From a virus: a stretch of DNA of 48,270 nt. The translations under genes were made by a program, and so were the position numbers. The notes beneath the pieces are model-generated. The model saw only the letters and a list, made by a program, of their open reading frames with translations, did not search any database and was not told the origin of the DNA. Shown piece after piece: positions 9,458 through 29,388 of this stretch. The stretch is from positions 1 to 48,270 of IMG/VR virus record IMGVR_UViG_3300017605_000884. One strand, 5' to 3'. Within the stretch, counting starts at the first letter, position 1. Each line of letters starts with the position of its first letter.

Positions 9458-11428
9458 TCAGCTCACCTTCCTCAGCTTCGACGGGCCGCTGCTGGTCGGC
9501 CGCGCGCCGGCCGCGCCACGCGACTGGCTCTGCTTCGCGCCGCCCGGCTTCGAGCCACCACCCGCGCCAGGTCGCTGTGTCGGTGGCGACTGCGAGCCTG
9601 GGACGCGCGGCTGTTGACCGCCGCCACCTTGTCCGCCCTGCATCGCCATCTGCACCTGGAGCGCGCCCTCGGCGATCTGGTCGGGGTTGCCGAACATCTC
9701 GCCGAGCTCGGGGAAGTCCAGGATCGCTCCCAGCTTCTGCGCCAGCTTGCCCCAGCCGAACGTCGGGTACTGCGCCGCGAGCTGCACCATCTGCGCCGTG
9801 ACCTGGAGCACCGCCATCGTGCGACCCTGCGCGCGCGCCTCGCCGTTGCGCTCCATCGAGCCCTTGACGAGCTTGATCGACAGCGCCTGCCACGGGACGC
9901 GCTTGATGCCCTGGCGCTCGCCACCGAGGTAGATCGGTTCGGGTGCGCGCTGCTCGACCTGGCCGTCAGGGAGCTGGTGCTGCTGCGCCGGCGCGAGCCC
10001 GCGCTTCATGAGCTCGCGGCCCTCCTTCGGACCGAGCTCCTTCGCGTAGCGGTTGTCGTTGTAGATGCAGAACGCGCCGCGGTACAGCATGTCGAGCACG
10101 CCGTCCTCGAAGGCCTGCTGGATCCCGGCGAAGCGCGCCTGCGAAGCGTTCTCGGCGTAGGTCTGCTCGGTCGCCGTGCCCACGCCCGACACGTTGCCGG
10201 CGTGCATGTCGTTGAACCCGAGCGTGCCCTCGAGGTTGTCCTTCGAGAACTGGATGTGCTGGAGCGACTGGTCGGTGAGCCCGCCGATCTCGGCCGCGAA
10301 GAGGTCGTCCTTCGTCACGCCGGTCAGCCGGTAGATGAAGTCGTTGACGCCGTCCTTGATCGCCTCGATCTGCGTCGGCGAGCCCTTGGCCGCGATGAGC
10401 AGGCGCTTGTACGCGCGCATGAGCGCCTGCGCCACGCCCACGTCGGTGTTGAGCTGGCGGATCTCCTCCTCGCACGCCGTCAGCGCGCCGAGCGGGAGCG
10501 TGTTGTTCGGCACCGTGTACTGGCCGAAGACGACGTAGGGGCCGCGCTCCGAACCGAACCAGGGACGCGGCGCGCGCGGGAACTTGCCGCCCTTGCGCGC
10601 TGCGTCGAGCTGCTTCTTCAGCTCGGTGTCGATCGCGGCCGAGATGCCTCCCGCCGCGTTGCTGCGGTGGACCAGGATCGTGAACATGGTCCCGTGCGCA
10701 CCACCCTTCGCGCCTGGCGACGCCTTCACGCCCCAAGGGTTGCCCTCCTCGAGCTCGTACTCCTCGACCCAGATGTCCGCGCCCACGATCTCGTCGCGCT
10801 TCACGTCGACACCACGGCCGTAGTCGGGTCGGCCCAGCGAGCTCACCTCGGAGTCTGTCGCGTAGTCCTGGATCGCAGCGAGGTCCCAGCCGCCAGCCTC
10901 GCCCTCGCGCAGGATGTCGTCCTTGTCGCGCGCCCAGATGTGTCCCTGGAGTCGGATGTCGTCGCGCTGCTGAGCGAGCGCGTCCTCGAAGTACCGGCCC
11001 TGCGGGATGCGGTAGAACTTGTTCGTCCAGGGCGTGCGCGGGGGCGGGCCGCCCTTGGTCGGATCGCCAGGGAGCTGGTCGGTCCCGACGCCCTCGATCG
11101 GCCGCGCGCCGGCCATCGGCTCGCTGGTCATGACGACCACGCCGAAGTTGTACTGCATGTCGCTGGCGGGTCCGCGCGCGAGGAACTGCCGCATCTGGCT
11201 GTCCTCGATCCAACGGTTCACCATCAGCTCGAGCTCGAACTCCTCGCCGCCCTCGCTCGCCACCGTCGAGCCGACCGACGCGCGCGGGTCGTCCCACACG
11301 AGCTGCGGCACGACGTACGCCATCCAGCGGTGGTAGTAGTTCTGCCGGAATATGTCCTCGGCGCTGAGGTCCTTGAAGTAGTGCGGACCCGCGCGGCGCT
11401 GGATCTGCTTCTCGTAGGACGCGAGCAC
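9458..11428 (-). CDS. Portal protein
   Basis: This 656-residue protein (from GTG 11428) forms the dodecameric DNA channel at the capsid vertex in related phages. The N-terminal part has YYHRWMAYVVPQLVWDDPRA, the middle has segments typical of P22/T7-type portals (IWVEEYELEEGN, YVVFGQYTVPNNTLPLGAL), then a helical stem and crown, and a disordered Gly/Pro/Gln/Ser-rich C-terminus. The true start is unclear. The frame stays open and protein-like for about 22 more codons (LKLTPDDLYREFEAGIAKTR) up to the stop of the upstream gene at 11488, but that stretch has only CTG codons (11494 and 11491) as possible starts. GTG 11428 is therefore a minimum. Confidence 0.85.
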   Translation of the reverse strand: MLASYEKQIQRRAGPHYFKDLSAEDIFRQNYYHRWMAYVVPQLVWDDPRASVGSTVASEGGEEFELELMVNRWIEDSQMRQFLARGPASDMQYNFGVVVMTSEPMAGARPIEGVGTDQLPGDPTKGGPPPRTPWTNKFYRIPQGRYFEDALAQQRDDIRLQGHIWARDKDDILREGEAGGWDLAAIQDYATDSEVSSLGRPDYGRGVDVKRDEIVGADIWVEEYELEEGNPWGVKASPGAKGGAHGTMFTILVHRSNAAGGISAAIDTELKKQLDAARKGGKFPRAPRPWFGSERGPYVVFGQYTVPNNTLPLGALTACEEEIRQLNTDVGVAQALMRAYKRLLIAAKGSPTQIEAIKDGVNDFIYRLTGVTKDDLFAAEIGGLTDQSLQHIQFSKDNLEGTLGFNDMHAGNVSGVGTATEQTYAENASQARFAGIQQAFEDGVLDMLYRGAFCIYNDNRYAKELGPKEGRELMKRGLAPAQQHQLPDGQVEQRAPEPIYLGGERQGIKRVPWQALSIKLVKGSMERNGEARAQGRTMAVLQVTAQMVQLAAQYPTFGWGKLAQKLGAILDFPELGEMFGNPDQIAEGALQVQMAMQGGQGGGGQQPRVPGSQSPPTQRPGAGGGSKPGGAKQSQSRGAAGARPTSSGPSKLRKVS

Positions 11429-11487: not shown

Positions 11488-11784
11488 TCAGCAGGGCGGC
11501 ACGGAAGCCTCTCCCCGCATGATGCCTTGGACCGCGAGCAGCTCTTCCTTCGTGCGCCAGACGATCGGCACTTGACCAGGCAGCATCGTGAACCGCCAGG
11601 GCGTGTCCCAGTCGGTCACGATGCGGGTTCCGCGCCCGCGCTCCCAGTACTCGTATCCGACGATCTCCTGGTTATGAGCCAGGCGTGCTACCACTGCACT
11701 ACGCTGCGTCGCGCGCGGCTTCACGAGAGCGACGGCGCCGGCCAGGCCAGCAGCCACCGCAGCGAAGAAGCCGCGCCGGTTCAC
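11488..11784 (-). CDS. Small exported protein with twin-arginine-type signal
   Basis: This 98-residue protein starts at GTG 11784, which shares GTGA with the stop of the gene before it. It opens with VNRRGFF and a hydrophobic stretch AAVAAGLAGAVAL, the layout of a Tat signal (twin Arg at 3-4, aromatic pair at 6-7). The mature part of about 75 residues has an aromatic WERGRGTRIVTDWDTPWRF region and MLPGQVPIVWRTKEELL. A longer in-frame start exists upstream but adds a non-coding-looking tail. It is one of two Tat-type cargo candidates in the phage; the other lies beside tatA. The signal assignment is inferred; the function of the mature part is unknown. It also contains a tRNA-like segment. Confidence 0.7.
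   Translation of the reverse strand: MNRRGFFAAVAAGLAGAVALVKPRATQRSAVVARLAHNQEIVGYEYWERGRGTRIVTDWDTPWRFTMLPGQVPIVWRTKEELLAVQGIMRGEASVPPC
11667..11701 (-). other. tRNA-Met-like D-arm and anticodon arm inside a CDS
   Basis: On the leftward strand there is a D-arm with stem GTGC/GCAC and loop AGTGGTA, one spacer base, then an anticodon arm with stem CCTGG/CCAGG and loop CTCATAA, that is a CAU anticodon with U33 and A37. These are the conserved bases of tRNA-Met. No T-arm or matching acceptor stem follows or precedes, so it is not a functional tRNA gene. It may be a tRNA relic, a tRNA-mimicking RNA element or coincidence. Confidence 0.45.
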
Positions 11785-11936
11785 CGGAAGAGCCTCGCAG
11801 CCTTCCAGGCGTTGTACTCCTGCGCCTCTCCAATCTGAGGCTTGCCCTTCAGGAAGCGCCGAGCCTTGCGCGCTGCCTGCTTCTGCTTCGACGTGGTCTC
11901 CCACCGTCGACACCGGAGGTACGTCGTGTTGCTCAC
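11781..11936 (-). CDS. Small basic protein, unknown
   Basis: This is a 51-residue protein from GTG 11936, linked at both ends by GTGA overlaps (with the beta-helix gene before it and the Tat-type gene after it). It is strongly basic in the middle (SKQKQAARKARRFLKGKPQ) with an aromatic C-terminus (YNAWKAARLFR) and an N-terminal Cys. It may bind nucleic acid or be a basic virion peptide. The overlaps are the main support that it is a gene. Confidence 0.6.
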   Translation of the reverse strand: MSNTTYLRCRRWETTSKQKQAARKARRFLKGKPQIGEAQEYNAWKAARLFR

Positions 11937-12745
11937 CGGACCGTCCCCGTCTCGAACTGGTACCCCGTCGGACCCGTGCAGCCGCCCCACAGCACCCCGC
12001 GCCCGCCCAGCACGGTGCTCGAGCGCACGATGACCGCGCCGTGTTCAGAGATCACGCCAGAGCCACCACGGCCCACGCAGGACCACGAGCACGGCCCGAG
12101 CGCGCGCGGCGCGTCGCCGCCCTTCACGTAGCTGTTCTGGATCTGCACGACGCAGAACGGCGCGGCCCAGACCGCGGGGAAGCCGCGCTGGAAGCTGTTG
12201 TCGTTCGGCACGCAGTCCACGTCGACCGGCCACGCGCCGGCCTGGAGGATCGAGTTGCGAACCGTGAGCGCGAGCGTGCCGCCGATGCAACCACCGTTCG
12301 AGCGGATCGAGCACGTGTCGAGGATCACGCGACCGATGCCGCCGGTCATGAGCCCGGGGGCCGCGACTCCGTTGAACGTCCCGCGCCACTTCGGCGTGCC
12401 CGGGATCACCGCGGTCCCGTAGAAGCTCACCGTGCGCGTGCGCGACTCGAACGTGCCCGGGCCGTCGCTCGTGTCGAAGAGCAGCGCCGGCATCACGTCG
12501 GTCGACTGGAACACCCCGCCCACGAAGGTCAGGTCACGGTCGCCGCGCACCCTCACGTTGCGCTTAACGACCGGCTCCCAGTCGTCGACGCGGATCACCG
12601 CACCGTTGGGCGCGGCGTTCACGGCCTGCTCGAAGATCGAGGGCGGGGGCGTTCCCGCGTCGCTCGGGTTGGTTGGGGTCGGAAGCTTCTGCGCGCTGGT
12701 CAGCCCAGCGAGCGCAACGAGGATCGAGAGAGCCCGCATGTTCAT
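11933..12745 (-). CDS. Exported, cysteine-rich right-handed beta-helix protein
   Basis: This 270-residue protein starts at ATG 12745 (ATGA overlap). It has a short Sec signal peptide: MNMR, a hydrophobic core ALSILVALAGL, and a likely cut after TSA. The mature part has repeating short strands of pectate-lyase-like beta-helices (AVIRVDDW, LTFVGGVF, RVILDTCSI, ALTVRNSIL, VVQIQNSYV, AVIVRSSTV) at about 20-25-residue spacing. About eight cysteines lie in the second half (CSWSC, GGCTG), which suggests disulfides and thus a periplasmic or extracellular protein. Polysaccharide binding or cleavage is possible but no catalytic residues were identified. It is unusual to find a Sec-exported beta-helix protein between terminase and portal genes. 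Confidence 0.75.
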   Translation of the reverse strand: MNMRALSILVALAGLTSAQKLPTPTNPSDAGTPPPSIFEQAVNAAPNGAVIRVDDWEPVVKRNVRVRGDRDLTFVGGVFQSTDVMPALLFDTSDGPGTFESRTRTVSFYGTAVIPGTPKWRGTFNGVAAPGLMTGGIGRVILDTCSIRSNGGCIGGTLALTVRNSILQAGAWPVDVDCVPNDNSFQRGFPAVWAAPFCVVQIQNSYVKGGDAPRALGPCSWSCVGRGGSGVISEHGAVIVRSSTVLGGRGVLWGGCTGPTGYQFETGTVR

Positions 12746-13316: not shown

Positions 13317-13636
13317 CAGTCGACCTCGAAGCTCAAGGGTAGGAGCCCGCCGAGCAGGCCCGTCTGCGTGGTGATGACGCCCTTCGCGAGCGTCACGTCG
13401 GCGTCGAGCATGATCGCCGCGATCTTGCCGAAGCAGCTCGCGCCGCCCAGCTCGGTGTTCGCCGCGGCGACGATCGTGTTGACGTTCTGCATGTTGGCGA
13501 GCGCGTCGGCACGCAGCGCGACGGCCAGCTCGAGCAGCGTCTTGAGCTGCGGGTCGGCCGAGGGCGTGACCATCAGGCTCTGGATCCCGCGGACCAGGGT
13601 GCGCATCCGCGGGGTGAGGTCGACCATCGCGCTCAT
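13316..13636 (-). CDS. Hypothetical helical protein
   Basis: This 106-residue protein starts at ATG 13636, which overlaps the terminase stop by ATGA. The first two thirds look like two amphipathic helices (LTPRMRTLVRGIQSLM, LKTLLELAVALRADALANM), the last third is Gly/Leu/Thr-rich (TTQTGLLGGLLPLSFEVD). No metal-binding or enzyme motif is seen. Its place directly after the large terminase suggests a packaging or head role; nothing more can be supported. Confidence 0.65.
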   Translation of the reverse strand: MSAMVDLTPRMRTLVRGIQSLMVTPSADPQLKTLLELAVALRADALANMQNVNTIVAAANTELGGASCFGKIAAIMLDADVTLAKGVITTQTGLLGGLLPLSFEVD

Positions 13637-15489
13637 CGTGTTCTCCCGTTGCTGCGGCGCATCACGTCCTCGTGCCCCATGCGGTGGCCAGCCGTTCCAA
13701 TCGGGTGGCGCTCGACGACCTTGGGGCCTTTGGGGTCCATGAGCCACTGATAGACTGCCGCGTACCGCGTGGCCGCGCAACCGTCCTGCGGGACAGCGGG
13801 ATCCGGCTCCTCGTCGTCGGGCCGCCCGTCCTCGTGCTCGCGGAACACGAACCCGCCGATCTCCTCCTCGCTCGCGCACGGCAGGAACTTCTCGGCGCTG
13901 ATCGGGCAGCGCCCCTCGCGCAGCCCGTTGCGGCCCCAGTACATGCGCGGGCCGCCCTTCTGCGTGGGCAGCAGCATCTCGCGCACGAGGTCCAGCGACG
14001 TCGGCACGAACTTGGTCCGGTTGCCCTTGCGCACGCTCTTGTCCACGCCCTGCGCGATCGAGAGCGCTCCCTTGGCCTCGAGCCGGTCGTTGATCTTCAC
14101 GATGCGCTCCGGGTCCTCGCAGTCGAGCACCGCGGCGTGCAGGTCGAACTCGATCCAGAAGTCCAGCACGCGCTCGGTCCACCAGTCGTCGAGCATCTCG
14201 CGCCGGTGAACCTCGGCCGCGCGGAAGATGCGGTCGTCGTAGGTCACGAGCCAGACCTGGAGCGCGCCCGCGTTGCGGTAGCCGAGGTCCTGCGACGCGA
14301 ACGCCCACTTCACGTCGAGCCGCTCCGGCAGCCACGGGCCGCGGTCACCAAGGAAGTGCAGGCGCATCGGGCGGCGGTCCGAGATCACGTTCTTCTTCAC
14401 GTTGGCCGCCTTCTCGGCCTCGGTCAGCGGCACCGACGCCGGGTCGCGCTCGCCCTCGCGCTCAACCTCGAACGTGACCATGTGGACGGTCGGGTCGAAG
14501 CTCGGCCAGATCTGCCCCGCCGCGCCCTGCCACAGGCCGAGGAACAGGTTCGCGCGGCGGTGCCCGGTCAGCGCCTTCAGCTTGGCCAGGTCGTCCTCGG
14601 TGCAGGCGGGGTTGTCCTCGTGGCGTGACAGGATGCGCGTGAACGGGTGCGTCGGCGAGCGGAACACGCGCCGGCTCGGGGGCTTCTCGTCCTTGATCCG
14701 CTCGAGCTCGACGCCACCGATCGGCGCGGCCATCTGGTTGAGCTGCGCGAACTCGCTCGAGGGGTTCGTGTCGAGCACCATCTGCTGCCAGCAGCCGAAG
14801 TGCCCGCTCGGGTTCTTCGCGGCGAGCTCGCGCACCTTGGCCGGGGCCGCTGCGATCGTCGCCGGGTCGGTGACGCCGTGGTACTTCGCCCAGCACTCAT
14901 CCATCCAGTTCGCGCCCTTCGGCACCGCCACGCCGAACTCGTTCTTCACCCAGCGCGCGCCCACGAGCTCGGTCAGCCCGCGGTTCCACGGCGCGTACCG
15001 GCACAGCACGTGATTGCGGTTCGCGCGGTAGAGCCGCTCGATCGAGTCGCGCGAGAACTCCCACGCCTCGAAGCCGCCGATCAGGTCGTACTCCATCGAG
15101 TACGTCCAGCCCGGATCCTCGAGCCCGCCGATCACGTAGCGCGTGCCGTTGGGGAAGACGTAGTCGCGCCGGTTCGCACGCAGCGCGGTCCCGTGCTGCG
15201 CGGGATGGCGCTTGCCGTCCATCATCGGCGCCCAGACCTTCTCCTCGAGCGTGGCGAGGGTCGACTCGCGCAGGCTCTGCATCGTCTGGCGCAGTAGCAG
15301 CACGCGGATCCCGGGGCAGTTCCAAGCGTAGTGCTCGAACACGCGCAGGATGCCCGAGCTCTTGCCCGTGTCGGCCGGGCCCTCTACCAGAATGCGCGGG
15401 TCGTAGCAGCGCGCGAGCGCGGTGATCGCGCCGTAGCACTTGATCGTGCGCGCGGCGCCGATCGAGTCAGAGAGGGTCGGGGTCGTCAC
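13633..15489 (-). CDS. terL: Terminase large subunit (TerL)
   Basis: This 618-residue protein packages DNA into the prohead as ATPase and nuclease. The start GTG 15489 shares GTGA with the preceding 20-codon ORF. The Walker A motif EGPADTGKSS is at residues 36-45, followed by IRVLLLRQTMQSLRES, a typical TerL adenine/Walker-A-downstream element. The acidic Walker B region is near YDLIGGFEAWEF. The C-terminal RNase H-like nuclease has FASQDLGYRNAGALQVW with its first Asp, later HAAVLDCEDP. Length and order fit podovirus TerL. The frame continues open upstream of GTG 15489 but that part is low-complexity and overlaps the Tat-cargo gene. Confidence 0.9.
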   Translation of the reverse strand: MTTPTLSDSIGAARTIKCYGAITALARCYDPRILVEGPADTGKSSGILRVFEHYAWNCPGIRVLLLRQTMQSLRESTLATLEEKVWAPMMDGKRHPAQHGTALRANRRDYVFPNGTRYVIGGLEDPGWTYSMEYDLIGGFEAWEFSRDSIERLYRANRNHVLCRYAPWNRGLTELVGARWVKNEFGVAVPKGANWMDECWAKYHGVTDPATIAAAPAKVRELAAKNPSGHFGCWQQMVLDTNPSSEFAQLNQMAAPIGGVELERIKDEKPPSRRVFRSPTHPFTRILSRHEDNPACTEDDLAKLKALTGHRRANLFLGLWQGAAGQIWPSFDPTVHMVTFEVEREGERDPASVPLTEAEKAANVKKNVISDRRPMRLHFLGDRGPWLPERLDVKWAFASQDLGYRNAGALQVWLVTYDDRIFRAAEVHRREMLDDWWTERVLDFWIEFDLHAAVLDCEDPERIVKINDRLEAKGALSIAQGVDKSVRKGNRTKFVPTSLDLVREMLLPTQKGGPRMYWGRNGLREGRCPISAEKFLPCASEEEIGGFVFREHEDGRPDDEEPDPAVPQDGCAATRYAAVYQWLMDPKGPKVVERHPIGTAGHRMGHEDVMRRSNGRTR

Positions 15490-15548
15490 GCTCCCAGTAC
15501 AGCCCGCGGAGGATGACCAGGTCGTTGCTCCTTCAGGTTGGTGTCCAT
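15486..15548 (-). CDS. Twenty-residue coupled mini-ORF between Tat cargo and terL
   Basis: The ORF starts at ATG 15548 through a TGATG junction with the stop of the Tat-cargo gene and ends with a TGA that shares GTGA with the terL start. It encodes 20 residues beginning MDTNLKEQ. A ribosome finishing the upstream gene could restart here and hand over to terL, so it may exist mainly as a translational bridge. The AAGGAG inside codons 6-7 could not serve the terL start. It may still be chance. Confidence 0.45.
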   Translation of the reverse strand: MDTNLKEQRPGHPPRAVLGA

Positions 15549-16267
15549 CACGCCAGCGTGCAGCCCTTGAAGAGCTCGCCGCGGCGCGCGCCGGTGTCCG
15601 CCATCGCCACGGCACGCTCGCCCAGGCGCGCACGGCGGAACCCGCGCGAGCCCAACGCGACGCGGTCGCCCGCCTGGATCTGCTGCGACGCCACCCCGGC
15701 GAAGAGCGTCCCGGCCGGCACCGTACCGATGTTGCGCGCGTCGACTCGGCGCACGCCAGAGCTGAGCATGGCGGTGACGCCTGCGATGCCGGTGAGCTTC
15801 TGGAGCGCGGCCTGGTCCTGCATGGCGAGCTCGGCGCGCGCGTGCTGCATCCCCCACTGGGTTCCCGCGCGCCCGATCTCGTACGGCTTCTGCCAGTACT
15901 GGATGCGTTCGAGCACGTCGGGGTTGTTCCGCGCCCACGGAGCGAGCAGGTAGAGCATCCCCTCCAGGTTCGACGGGTTGATCTCGCGCCACGCCGCGCC
16001 GCCCGACTCGAACAGCAGCGACAGGTCGCCGAACGCCTGCTTCAGGTAGGCGTACTGCGTGCGCAGCGCGTCCAGCTCGCGCTCGAGCTTCTTGTTCTCG
16101 ATCAGCAGCGTCTTGGTCAGGCCCGCGCGCTTGCGCACCGGGGCGGATTCGAGTGCGGCCTGCGCGCTCGCCACGATCGAGCCTTGCGAGAGCACGGCCG
16201 CGAGCGCACCGAAGATGCCGGCGCCGCGCAGGATGTCTCGACGGGATGCGGTGAGAGAGTCGCTCAT
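15548..16267 (-). CDS. Twin-arginine-signal protein beside tatA
   Basis: This 239-residue protein starts at ATG 16267 with GAGGA about 7 nt upstream. Residues 8-14 are SRRDILR, a close match to the Tat consensus (S/T)RRxFLK, followed by a hydrophobic GAGIFGALAAVL and a signal-peptidase site near ASA-QA (about residue 35). The mature part begins with a long charged helix/coiled coil (about 45-80, KTLLIENKKLERELDALR), then a helical domain rich in Trp, and a beta-rich C-terminal 60 residues (IQAGDRVALGSRGF, GERAVAMADTG) like small capsid-cement or SH3-like barrels. It lies 26 bp downstream of tatA and just before terL. Export by Tat is inferred; the role outside the cytoplasm is unknown. Confidence 0.75.
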   Translation of the reverse strand: MSDSLTASRRDILRGAGIFGALAAVLSQGSIVASAQAALESAPVRKRAGLTKTLLIENKKLERELDALRTQYAYLKQAFGDLSLLFESGGAAWREINPSNLEGMLYLLAPWARNNPDVLERIQYWQKPYEIGRAGTQWGMQHARAELAMQDQAALQKLTGIAGVTAMLSSGVRRVDARNIGTVPAGTLFAGVASQQIQAGDRVALGSRGFRRARLGERAVAMADTGARRGELFKGCTLA

Positions 16268-16293
16268 GGGTAGTCCTCGCAGTCGGTTCTCGC

Positions 16294-16503
16294 TCACGGC
16301 TTGATTTCCCGCTTCAGCTCGTCGACCTCGCCCTTGACCTCCTCTACGCCCTGCAACCCCTTCTTCAGCTCGAGGATGCTCTGCCCGAGTCCGCGGCCGA
16401 GCTCCGGCAGCTTCTTCCCGCCGAAGATCATGATGACGACGCCGCCGATGATGAGCGCCTCGGTCATGCCGATCATGGCCAGGCACGGAACTCCCGCAAG
16501 CAT
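16294..16503 (-). CDS. tatA: TatA-family twin-arginine translocase subunit
   Basis: This 69-residue protein starts at ATG 16503 with AAAGGA about 8 nt upstream. It shows the full TatA plan: a short N-terminus, a single transmembrane helix with an acidic residue (residues 9-28, GMTEALIIGGVVIMIFGG), the hinge FGGKKLPEL at 27-35, an amphipathic helix LGRGLGQSILELKKGL at about 35-50, then a charged tail. In bacteria TatA oligomers let folded proteins with RR signals cross the inner membrane together with TatBC. No tatC or tatB is present, so it must use host partners or act alone. Its two RR-signal neighbours make a functional link likely. The phage may use it to raise Tat capacity or as a membrane-weakening protein. 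Confidence 0.9.
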   Translation of the reverse strand: MLAGVPCLAMIGMTEALIIGGVVIMIFGGKKLPELGRGLGQSILELKKGLQGVEEVKGEVDELKREIKP

Positions 16504-16519: not shown

Positions 16520-16927
16520 CTACTCGGGGCTGGTCACGGTGAACAGGTTGGTCTTCACGATCGAGAACGTCCCCGAAGGGCTCTCGACGGTGAGCTCGAT
16601 CGAGTACGTGCCGAGCGTGGCGAACACCATCGCGAGCGGCGAGTCGCCAGGCTCGATCGTGGAGTCGCCCGGGTTCGGGATGCCTGGCCCGGAGAAGACC
16701 GAGTAGCTCGCCTGCGTCCACAGGCCGTTGATGAGCTGCGTGAAGGTGATCCCCGACGGCGCTTCGGGGTTCTGCACGAAGGAGAAGTCCACTACCGGCG
16801 GCGGCACCAGCGTGATCTGCTTCAGCGCCGACAGGTTGCCGCGCATCCGCTGAAGCGCTCGATCGGGCGGGAAGCACTCGCCGACACCGGGAGCGCTGCC
16901 TGCGACGCCGCGTTGGTACTTGCTCAT
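16520..16927 (-). CDS. PKD/Ig-like fold protein
   Basis: This 135-residue protein starts at ATG 16927 (ATGA overlap with the small-terminase-like gene). Residues 45-133 read as one PKD-type beta sandwich: VVDFSFVQNP, YSVFSGPGIPNPGDSTIEPG, and the closing pattern MVFATLGTYSIELTVESPSG. It has no signal peptide. PKD/Ig domains in phages usually decorate virions and bind cell-surface sugars weakly. It stands directly before tatA. The fold call is by pattern. Confidence 0.65.
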   Translation of the reverse strand: MSKYQRGVAGSAPGVGECFPPDRALQRMRGNLSALKQITLVPPPVVDFSFVQNPEAPSGITFTQLINGLWTQASYSVFSGPGIPNPGDSTIEPGDSPLAMVFATLGTYSIELTVESPSGTFSIVKTNLFTVTSPE

Positions 16928-17463
16928 TTGGACTCCTGCGTGGGGTTGTCTGCTTGAACTTGACTCGGGATGGTACCCTCGGTCGGGTCACCGGGCTCCG
17001 GAGGTGCTGGGTTCACCGTGTCGTAGAGCTCCAGGCGGATGTGCGGCACCACCAGGGCCTCGCCATCGTGGCCGGCAAGGCGCGTCTCGAGCGGGCCGTC
17101 CTCACGCGCCCACAGCTCCTTCAGCAGCGGCGCGCGTCCGGGCTCATCGGAGTTGGCCAGCACGTCGACGTACCAGCGCGCAGCCGGGGCGAGCTCGTCC
17201 GCGTCGCCATCCTCCATCCGCTTGGCCAGCTCGCGCCGGACGGCGGCCTGGAATCGCTGCTTGCGGTTCGAGCCTGCGGGGTTGCCGCTCTGGCCAGGCT
17301 GCCACGCCGGAGCGGCCCCTGGAGGTTGTGTGCCTGGCACCCACGAAGGGTTGCCCCTCCCCTTGGTGCTCTTGTTCGTGCCAGCAGCAACCTCCTGCCC
17401 TCCAGACGCTCCAGGCTCGCTCGTGGGCGAGGCTGCCGGCGGTTGGCCTTCCGGGTCACTCAT
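16924..17463 (-). CDS. Small-terminase-like protein (DUF5681-type N-terminal motif)
   Basis: This 179-residue protein starts at ATG 17463. After a disordered Pro/Ser/Gly-rich N-terminus comes WQPGQSGNPAG at residues 54-64, the hallmark of DUF5681, which often occurs in proteins encoded just before terL. A basic helical part follows (KQRFQAAVRRELAKRME) with DEPGRAPLLKELWARED after it. Packaging-region position supports a DNA-recognition (TerS) role, though four small genes, including tatA, separate it from terL. The ORF stays open farther upstream but that extension is arginine-rich and non-coding in style. Confidence 0.65.
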   Translation of the reverse strand: MSDPEGQPPAASPTSEPGASGGQEVAAGTNKSTKGRGNPSWVPGTQPPGAAPAWQPGQSGNPAGSNRKQRFQAAVRRELAKRMEDGDADELAPAARWYVDVLANSDEPGRAPLLKELWAREDGPLETRLAGHDGEALVVPHIRLELYDTVNPAPPEPGDPTEGTIPSQVQADNPTQESK

Positions 17464-17506
17464 GGCGCTTTGAGCGTAGGGCGAGCCAGGCTGGGCGGCA
17501 AGGTCC

Positions 17507-17878
17507 TCACGTGACGAGCTCCAGCGTAACGGTCCTGGTGGGCCGCCCGACACCGAGCAGCTTGCGCAGCGCGGCCACCTCGAGCCCGAGCGAGTACGGC
17601 GCGCGGTAGGTGACGCCGTTCTGCTGGATGCGGGGGAGCGACTCGATCAGGTCGCACACCTCACGGTCGATGCGCTCTTGGCCGTGCGCTTCTCGAGCTC
17701 GCGGTCGGAGCTCATCGAGTTCGCGCCGCGCTTCCCAGTCGGGCTCGTTCATGGCGGACCACGAGTCGCGGAGGTCGTCGGTGCCGCGCTTGGCGCTGCG
17801 ACGTGCAGCGACGAGATCCTGCACGTGCTTTTCGACCCAGAGACGGAGACCGGGGTTGCGAATGTCGTTGACCTTCAA
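17507..17878 (-). CDS. Hypothetical charged protein with TTG start
   Basis: This 123-residue protein begins at TTG 17878, which shares TTGA with the preceding stop; no ATG or GTG fits better. It is charged and helical in the middle (EARRELDELRPRAREAHG) and has a C-terminal LRKLLGVGRPTRTVTLELV. It could bind nucleic acid, but no family is recognised. It is the last gene of the early block before the packaging genes. Confidence 0.65.
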   Translation of the reverse strand: MKVNDIRNPGLRLWVEKHVQDLVAARRSAKRGTDDLRDSWSAMNEPDWEARRELDELRPRAREAHGQERIDREVCDLIESLPRIQQNGVTYRAPYSLGLEVAALRKLLGVGRPTRTVTLELVT

Positions 17879-27141: not shown

Positions 27142-27477
27142 ATGAGCCGAGTCGAAGGCCGCTGGACGCGCCAACCTCCCCCGGGCTCGAACCCGGTCTG
27201 CGTGTTCATCTTCATCCCGAAGCTGCTGGCCGAGTTCCTCGAGCACAACAAGCAGGTCATCCAGGAGCGCCAGGTCACGCGCGTGCCGTCGCGCGTCGCG
27301 CAGCGCATCACCGGACCGGACGGCGCCCTCTGGATGGTGGCTGGCTCCGCGGTACTCTGGAACGAGGCGCAGCTCAAGCTGAACCGCGCCCTCTGGTGGT
27401 CCAAGACCATCGACGTCCAATTCCTCTCGATCGACCCAGGAGCCCCTCCGAGTGAAGATGCCCCCGACGTTCGCTGA
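27142..27477 (+). CDS. Hypothetical protein
   Basis: This 111-residue protein starts at ATG 27142 with CAGGAG 7 nt upstream. A hydrophobic strand CVFIFIPKLL is followed by a helix AEFLEHNKQVIQERQ, beta-rich SRVAQRITGPDGALWMVAG, and SAVLWNEAQLKLNRALWWS. The acidic tail overlaps the next gene by 26 bp. No family is recognised. Confidence 0.65.
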   Translation: MSRVEGRWTRQPPPGSNPVCVFIFIPKLLAEFLEHNKQVIQERQVTRVPSRVAQRITGPDGALWMVAGSAVLWNEAQLKLNRALWWSKTIDVQFLSIDPGAPPSEDAPDVR

Positions 27478-27835
27478 AACCATCAAGACCCGCGGCAACA
27501 TCCTGCTGGTGAAGAAGCTGCCGCGCACGCAGACCGCGGGCGGCATCCTGCTGACCGACCAGCAGAAGGTCTTCGAACTCGACTTGTTCCGGATCGTCTA
27601 CATCGGCCCGGGCAAGTACAACCTGTACTCGAACTCGCGCGTGGAGATCGACCTGAGGGTGGGGCAGCTCGTGCTGGCGAACCCACAGGCGGCGCTCACC
27701 TACGCGGACTGGACGAGCCAGGAGCTCTACATGCTGTCGGAAGGCGAGGTCTTCGGCGTGATCTCTCCCGAGGGCGAGTCGCTCTACACCGCGGTGCAGG
27801 TCGAGAAGATCGAGCAGGCGGCTGGCGTCGCATGA
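27452..27835 (+). CDS. GroES-like co-chaperonin
   Basis: This 127-residue protein starts at GTG 27452 (AGGAG 9 nt upstream; ATG 27458 is possible). GroES rings cap GroEL during folding. The N-terminal RGNILLVKKLPRTQTAGGIL holds the mobile loop with GGILL at 30-34, where GroEL binds. RIVYIGPGKYNL, the strand VEIDLRVGQLVLAN and SEGEVFGVIS match the remaining GroES barrel. No GroEL gene is present, so it would work with host GroEL, as T4 gp31 does for capsid folding. The sequence is diverged and has an extra C-terminal stretch. Confidence 0.75.
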   Translation: MKMPPTFAETIKTRGNILLVKKLPRTQTAGGILLTDQQKVFELDLFRIVYIGPGKYNLYSNSRVEIDLRVGQLVLANPQAALTYADWTSQELYMLSEGEVFGVISPEGESLYTAVQVEKIEQAAGVA

Positions 27836-29109: not shown

Positions 29110-29388
29110 TCATCGCTGAGCGAGACGCTGCGCCAGGTCCGCGAGCTGCCGATCGACCGCCCTGCGCCACTCGTCGTTCGCGGCCTTCCACGTAGCGTCG
29201 ACCTGTGCGCGCTCGGATTCCTTCTGCGCCAGTGCAAGGGCGCGTTCGGTCTCGGCGTGGTCGAACCTCCACATGCTCACGAAGAGCCCACCGATGCCGA
29301 CCAGGATCGCCCAGGCGAGCCGAGCGGTCACGATGAGCTTGCGGGACGGATCGACGCTGATCGTCCCGTTCTCCCGGTGCGAGGCCAT
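29110..29388 (-). CDS. Membrane-anchored coiled-coil protein, i-spanin candidate
   Basis: This 92-residue protein starts at ATG 29388 (TGATG with the previous stop). A basic N-terminal part precedes one membrane helix WAILVGIGGLFVSMW (about residues 27-41), then a long charged coiled coil (HAETERALALAQKESERAQ, to the end). This is the layout of inner-membrane spanins, and a lipoprotein gene follows three genes later. It could also be a holin-region structural protein. No endolysin gene was recognised nearby. Confidence 0.6.
   Translation of the reverse strand: MASHRENGTISVDPSRKLIVTARLAWAILVGIGGLFVSMWRFDHAETERALALAQKESERAQVDATWKAANDEWRRAVDRQLADLAQRLAQR

Follow-up and report, generated by a model that had tools for sequence, protein, structure and literature searches.

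What is a gene for TatA, a translocase subunit of the Tat pathway, doing among the packaging genes of a virus, immediately followed by one whose product carries a twin-arginine (RR) signal? The question arises from a linear virus record of 48,270 bases, possibly incomplete, which we analysed over its whole length and refer to as the window. The tatA gene (16294-16503, minus strand) has an ATG start with AAAGGA ahead of it and encodes 69 amino acids that had been predicted to form a complete TatA. Profile searches bore this out, with a match to the TatA/B family profile of Pfam (PF02416) at 57.5 bits (cut-off 21; 7.9e-16) and matches to the solved TatA structures 9e07, 7b7o, 2l16 and 2lzr. Alignment with cellular TatA revealed a short N-terminal membrane helix, an FGGKKLPEL hinge and an amphipathic helix. 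This layout, together with a score of 53.6 bits for the NCBIfam tatAE model TIGR01411 (just under its cut-off of 53.9) as compared to 23.4 bits for the tatB model, places the protein with TatA/E rather than with TatB. Pfam returned TatA_B_E only, no holin family was matched in Pfam or PHROGs, and the PHROGs matches were weak and to families of unknown function. The protein shares with bacterial TatA/TatE of the TatABC and TatAC translocons (PF02416, TIGR01411) its family, the short helix, the FG hinge, the amphipathic helix and the polar residue before the helix. Unlike these, it has a leucine in place of the phenylalanine of the amphipathic helix (ELKKG), and its gene is phage-borne, lacks a tatC partner and lies beside its own tagged cargo.

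That cargo, here called cargo 1, is a 239-residue protein (15548-16267, minus strand) with the N-terminus MSDSLTASRRDILRGAGIFGALAAVLSQGSIVASAQA, in which a twin-arginine signal (SRRDILR, a hydrophobic stretch and an ASA-QA cut site) is followed by a coiled-coil-like start of the mature part. Its start codon lies 26 bp from the tatA stop; an alternative in-frame GTG overlaps the tatA stop, which is the arrangement found in the relative G012. When all six frames of the window were scanned for RR followed by a hydrophobic uncharged stretch, the only two coding-strand matches were cargo 1 and a protein of 98 residues with a GTG start, cargo 2 (11488-11784, minus strand; N-terminus NRRGFFAAVAAGLAGAVALV), for which a longer reading from 11913 exists. 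Both RR-type proteins of the original prediction, the one 26 bp behind tatA and the one further along, were therefore recovered. In each, the RR lies near the N-terminus and is followed by the uncharged hydrophobic stretch, but generic Tat-signal profiles stayed below their cut-offs. Cargo 1 scored 7.1 bits with TIGR01409 (cut-off 16.7) and 20.3 bits (E 5e-4) with TIGR02811, the 'TAT target' model (cut-off 48.45); cargo 2 scored 12.0 bits with the latter and had no match to the former, and the Pfam profile PF10518 was matched by neither. Related cargos came near the TIGR01409 cut-off, with 16.5, 15.8 and 15.0 bits. An AlphaFold model of cargo 1 (pLDDT 39) was too poor for a structure search.

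The surrounding genes run on the minus strand in the order DUF5681, a 135-residue protein, tatA, cargo 1, terL, a set of small or secreted-looking genes that includes cargo 2, a portal-like gene and other head genes. The DUF5681 gene (16924-17553) was recognised by PF18932 at 27.6 bits, just over the cut-off of 27.5, and the 135-residue gene (16520-16927) separates it from tatA. Downstream of the pair lies the gene for the terminase large subunit, terL (13633-15489; phrog_2, 1.9e-10), which has relatives at 58-61% identity. The portal-like gene occupies 9458-11428; this name and that of the capsid-like protein of the window rest on position, size and relatives, with no family match of their own. 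Between terL and the portal-like gene there is also a possible Sec-type secreted protein (11933-12745, minus strand; MNMRALSILVALAGLTSAQ..., read from the sequence), which has no Pfam match; a similar signal-bearing protein stands at the same place in L002. No lysis cassette could be recognised between DUF5681 and terL, where tatA sits. Elsewhere, behind the tail genes, a small protein (29110-29388, minus strand), whose single N-terminal membrane helix precedes a coiled-coil-like tail, is a possible lysis gene.

We then asked whether relatives of the window phage carry the same pair. Scans of viral sequences with TatA, cargo 1 or the portal-like protein as single queries yielded few or no relatives, and a TerL search led to L002/G009 at 58-61% identity. 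The G009 contig starts just downstream of where the tatA/cargo region would be, and its end-to-start overlap with G012 (98.4% over 369 bp) joins it to a contig from the same metagenome. G012 is the nearest tatA-bearing relative; its TatA scores 60.4 bits with TIGR01411, over the cut-off, and it encodes a cargo homologous to cargo 1 in which the RR is conserved. The two cargos are 56-57% identical over about 110 residues: the mature N-terminal half is retained and the C-terminal halves differ. The pair in G012/G009 lies upstream of terL; the stretch between cargo and terL holds a further gene, a lipoprotein-like gene and a tRNA-Met gene, the last just upstream of terL (L061:857-931). The dN and dS values of the window-G012 pair were not informative. 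A third relative, G016 (L071), has a TerL at 58%, and its slot between DUF5681 and terL holds no tatA and no pair. Its interval between terL and the portal gene nevertheless encodes an RR protein, so that tatA appears dispensable for having such a cargo. Adjoining it is a secreted-looking sulfatase (L071:9981-11207; PF00884, 3.4e-21). The G016 RR protein stands at a place similar to that of cargo 2 and aligns with it weakly. Conservation of the RR, which had been expected of both cargos, thus held for cargo 1, in its one homologue, and is suggestive for cargo 2, with one weakly aligned relative. From these three genomes, the interval between terL and the portal gene seems to be a site of exchangeable genes for exported proteins.

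To see how widely the arrangement occurs, we searched viral contigs with TatA scans that are blind to neighbouring genes; the motif scans among them are not a census. Besides the window, 12 tatA-bearing contigs were found, with one further contig, G014, set aside. Eight of the 12 were rechecked by profile, all scoring over the family cut-off, and tatA in G010-G013 was identified by motif and alignment (in G012 also by profile match). The TatA signature is preserved among the phage copies, which resemble functional rather than truncated TatA. Head or tail genes support the phage status of G002, G003, G006, G008, G010 and G011, and replication genes that of G013; G004, G005 and G007 carry no such confirmation. 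Several candidates were discarded along the way: L004 and L005 were false matches to the C-terminus of a large phage protein, L031, L034 and L035 fitted the searched DNA pattern but had no TatA in the listed frames, and an alignment of eight TatA sequences was too diverse for scanning. A tblastn search of 50,697 phage records yielded no tatA that was convincingly phage-borne, as the matches looked like host sequence or were unrelated spanins.

In 7 of 12 tested contigs (the window, G001, G002, G004, G005, G010 and G012), an ORF with an RR signal began between -14 and +26 nt relative to the tatA stop, G008 having been left out of this test. Qualifying ORF starts occur at a background rate of 4.2e-5 per strand-base, from which 0.0043 would be expected per tatA (0.4%), and the nominal P for seven pairs is 2e-14. 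When related contigs were counted once, 3 of 8 were paired (nominal P 4e-6, with the grouping into eight made by eye). The test is conservative in its background, because this includes spurious ORFs. Of the remaining contigs, G011 has an RK variant at the same place behind tatA, G003 a signal of KR type (recognised by eye), and G013 an RR protein three genes beyond tatA; three RR-signal proteins lie elsewhere in G007 and two in G008, and the 24-kb record of G006 has no credible one. The three of G007 are related to each other (L059:19410-19916, L060:6997-7566 and L060:7603-8220). For both tatA and the cargo, dN/dS was below 1 in the pairs G001/G002 and G004/G005. Other phages with a tatA-cargo pair do therefore exist, but the packaging-operon setting, which holds in the window, is not general: elsewhere the pair sits outside it, and in G016 the corresponding slot is empty of it.

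The mature parts of the cargos are for the most part unrelated to each other and without a family match, and several are very short behind the signal. Shuffle comparisons pointed to head proteins for some of them; the pairs were picked by search before the shuffle test, so that short matches have inflated z values and count as weak evidence. The cargo of G001/G002 (L015:8132-8617 and L016:5791-6387) resembles the major capsid protein of its own phage (z about 12-14) and also a portion of the Tunturi_3 capsid protein, Tunturi_3 being an acidobacterial phage. In G008, a 343-residue RR protein (L083:8426-9457) resembles the capsid protein of the same phage (z 25; tblastn 7e-12) and a 102-residue one (L084:5802-6110) contains a stretch like the portal-like protein (z 8.5). 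The RR protein of G016 has a weak, 17-residue capsid stretch (z 9). An AlphaFold model of the capsid-like cargo of G008 (pLDDT 31) was too poor for a search. The window cargos had no convincing similarity to the capsid-like, portal-like or decoration-like proteins of the window by the shuffle test: the score of cargo 2 against the capsid-like protein was reached in 22 of 1000 shuffles, and the other comparisons were at chance. The cultured phage Tunturi_3, in which no tatA match was found, encodes a hypothetical protein (ORF49, L087:26312-26824) that scores 23.3 bits with the Pfam Tat-signal profile (cut-off 22.7).

TatC was not found in any tatA-bearing record except G014 (L025), a 6.9-kb contig classed as viral that holds a TatC fragment besides tatA; as a possibly cellular sequence it was left out. 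The window has a single PF02416 match. The prediction that neither TatC nor TatB accompanies tatA holds for TatC in this record, in which no second PF02416 protein was found, and is to be read against its linear and possibly incomplete state. If the cargo is exported, TatC of the host would be required, since the phage records do not supply it. As to that host, TatA relatives occur in Planctomycetota among others, and partial TerL relatives were found in 3 of 392 Planctomycetota genomes, which are only hints. In the case of G001/G002, TatA shares 67-71% identity with a TatA from Acidobacteria.

Taken together, these data, all of them computational, make it fairly probable that the window carries a phage-borne Tat-export module, in which the phage supplies extra TatA for its own RR cargo. 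What can be read directly from the sequences is a TatA/E protein, a cargo signal that combines RR with a hydrophobic region and a cut site, the direct linkage of the two genes and their recurrence in unrelated contigs. In the Tat pathway, which carries folded proteins, many copies of TatA gather at the TatC receptor once substrate is loaded, and extra TatA would plausibly raise the capacity for a cargo made in bulk. TatA would be made from the same gene run as the tagged cargo and, judging from its place among packaging genes, would be supplied during infection. It would join the receptor formed by host TatC (and TatB, if present) in the infected cell, so that the capacity to move folded cargo across the inner membrane would be raised or made specific. 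The cargo would then act in the periplasm or on the membrane and may change the envelope; we rank exclusion of other phages ahead of help in lysis as its purpose. The original prediction of extra TatA, a dedicated cargo and use of host TatC is thereby strengthened by the TatA profile, the conserved RR of cargo 1 and the recurring pair, with cargo 2 adding a suggestion. Against the module stand the generic Tat-signal scores of the window cargos and the RR protein of G016, which occurs without tatA.

Other readings were weighed against the same evidence. Phage TatA could compete with host TatA and block or redirect host export, with the RR cargo jamming or titrating TatC. The carriage of TatA without TatC would suit this, as would the very short cargos, which could serve as jamming peptides; however, the phage proteins do not look truncated, and a blocker needs no matched and selected cargo domain such as the mature N-terminal half of cargo 1 that is kept in the relative. 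We regard this as unlikely, albeit the foremost of the alternatives. Next comes the view, also unlikely, that the RR cargo is what matters to the phage and is exported by host Tat alone, tatA being a dispensable helper of some lineages. G016 and Tunturi_3, with RR proteins and no tatA in the record, speak for it, while the repeated and independent-looking pairing suggests that tatA brings an advantage; this view differs from a Tat-export module in degree only.

That TatA destabilises the membrane in the manner of a small holin or pinholin, its RR neighbour being coincidental or a regulator, had been offered at the outset as the second possibility and gained no positive support. It is a small single-helix membrane protein, and a lipoprotein-like coiled-coil gene with a conceivable part in lysis is among those that follow tatA in L019/G007, but the lack of a holin family match, the TatA signature kept among phages and an RR cargo far above chance all argue the other way, and the membrane protein at 29110-29388 is another candidate for lysis. 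We consider this reading improbable, below the two just given. Lower again we place the notion that tatA is a host passenger gene, or stems from cellular DNA within a viral record, without phage function. Close cellular relatives such as the Acidobacteria TatA and the host-like matches in the phage collection would fit it, whereas the window tatA lies inside packaging genes on the same strand, the pair is kept upstream of terL in G012/G009, dN/dS is below 1 in two pairs, phage genes confirm several other contigs and the linkage to RR proteins recurs. Least likely of all, and rather speculative, is that Tat hitch-hiking serves as a weapon or regulator, tagged head-protein mimics, aided by phage TatA, capturing those host factors by which head proteins are recognised (e.g. 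defence sensors) and removing them from the cytoplasm; head-protein-like cargos were seen in G001, G002, G008 and weakly in G016, and in neither window cargo.

A Tat-export module would have partial precedents. In the phoD-tatAd-tatCd operon of Bacillus subtilis, a cellular tat operon includes its substrate, so that a Tat component is likewise encoded beside the cargo it serves; the phage pair differs in lacking tatC, in its unrelated cargo and in lying in a phage genome. Phages are known to target proteins to the envelope, as in Sec-type exclusion proteins, spanins and SAR endolysins, which use Sec or direct insertion. The proposed module would similarly place a phage product in or across the inner membrane, but with a Tat-type signal and with a translocase subunit brought along. 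Holins and pinholins are also small phage membrane proteins, from which the window TatA is set apart by the absence of sequence match, its conserved TatA signature and its location in the window outside any lysis cassette that could be recognised. Searches of open-access full texts turned up no account of a tatA-cargo module in a phage; TatA and its pathway are themselves already described, and the phage-encoded pair is provisionally new.

Recurrence of the pair in unrelated environmental phages suggests a so far undescribed phage route for exporting proteins from the cytoplasm. If true, this would be a new route to the envelope beside Sec and direct insertion, comprising a translocase subunit and a tagged cargo, and would bring into view a set of uncharacterised proteins that phages of soil and other environments export. 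Two questions become open to test: does the supply of TatA limit Tat export in infected cells, and for what reason do some phages give head-protein-like domains an export tag? As a separate observation, the plus strand of the window encodes a GroES-like co-chaperonin at 27452-27835 (Pfam Cpn10, 36.2 bits; cut-off 21.1).
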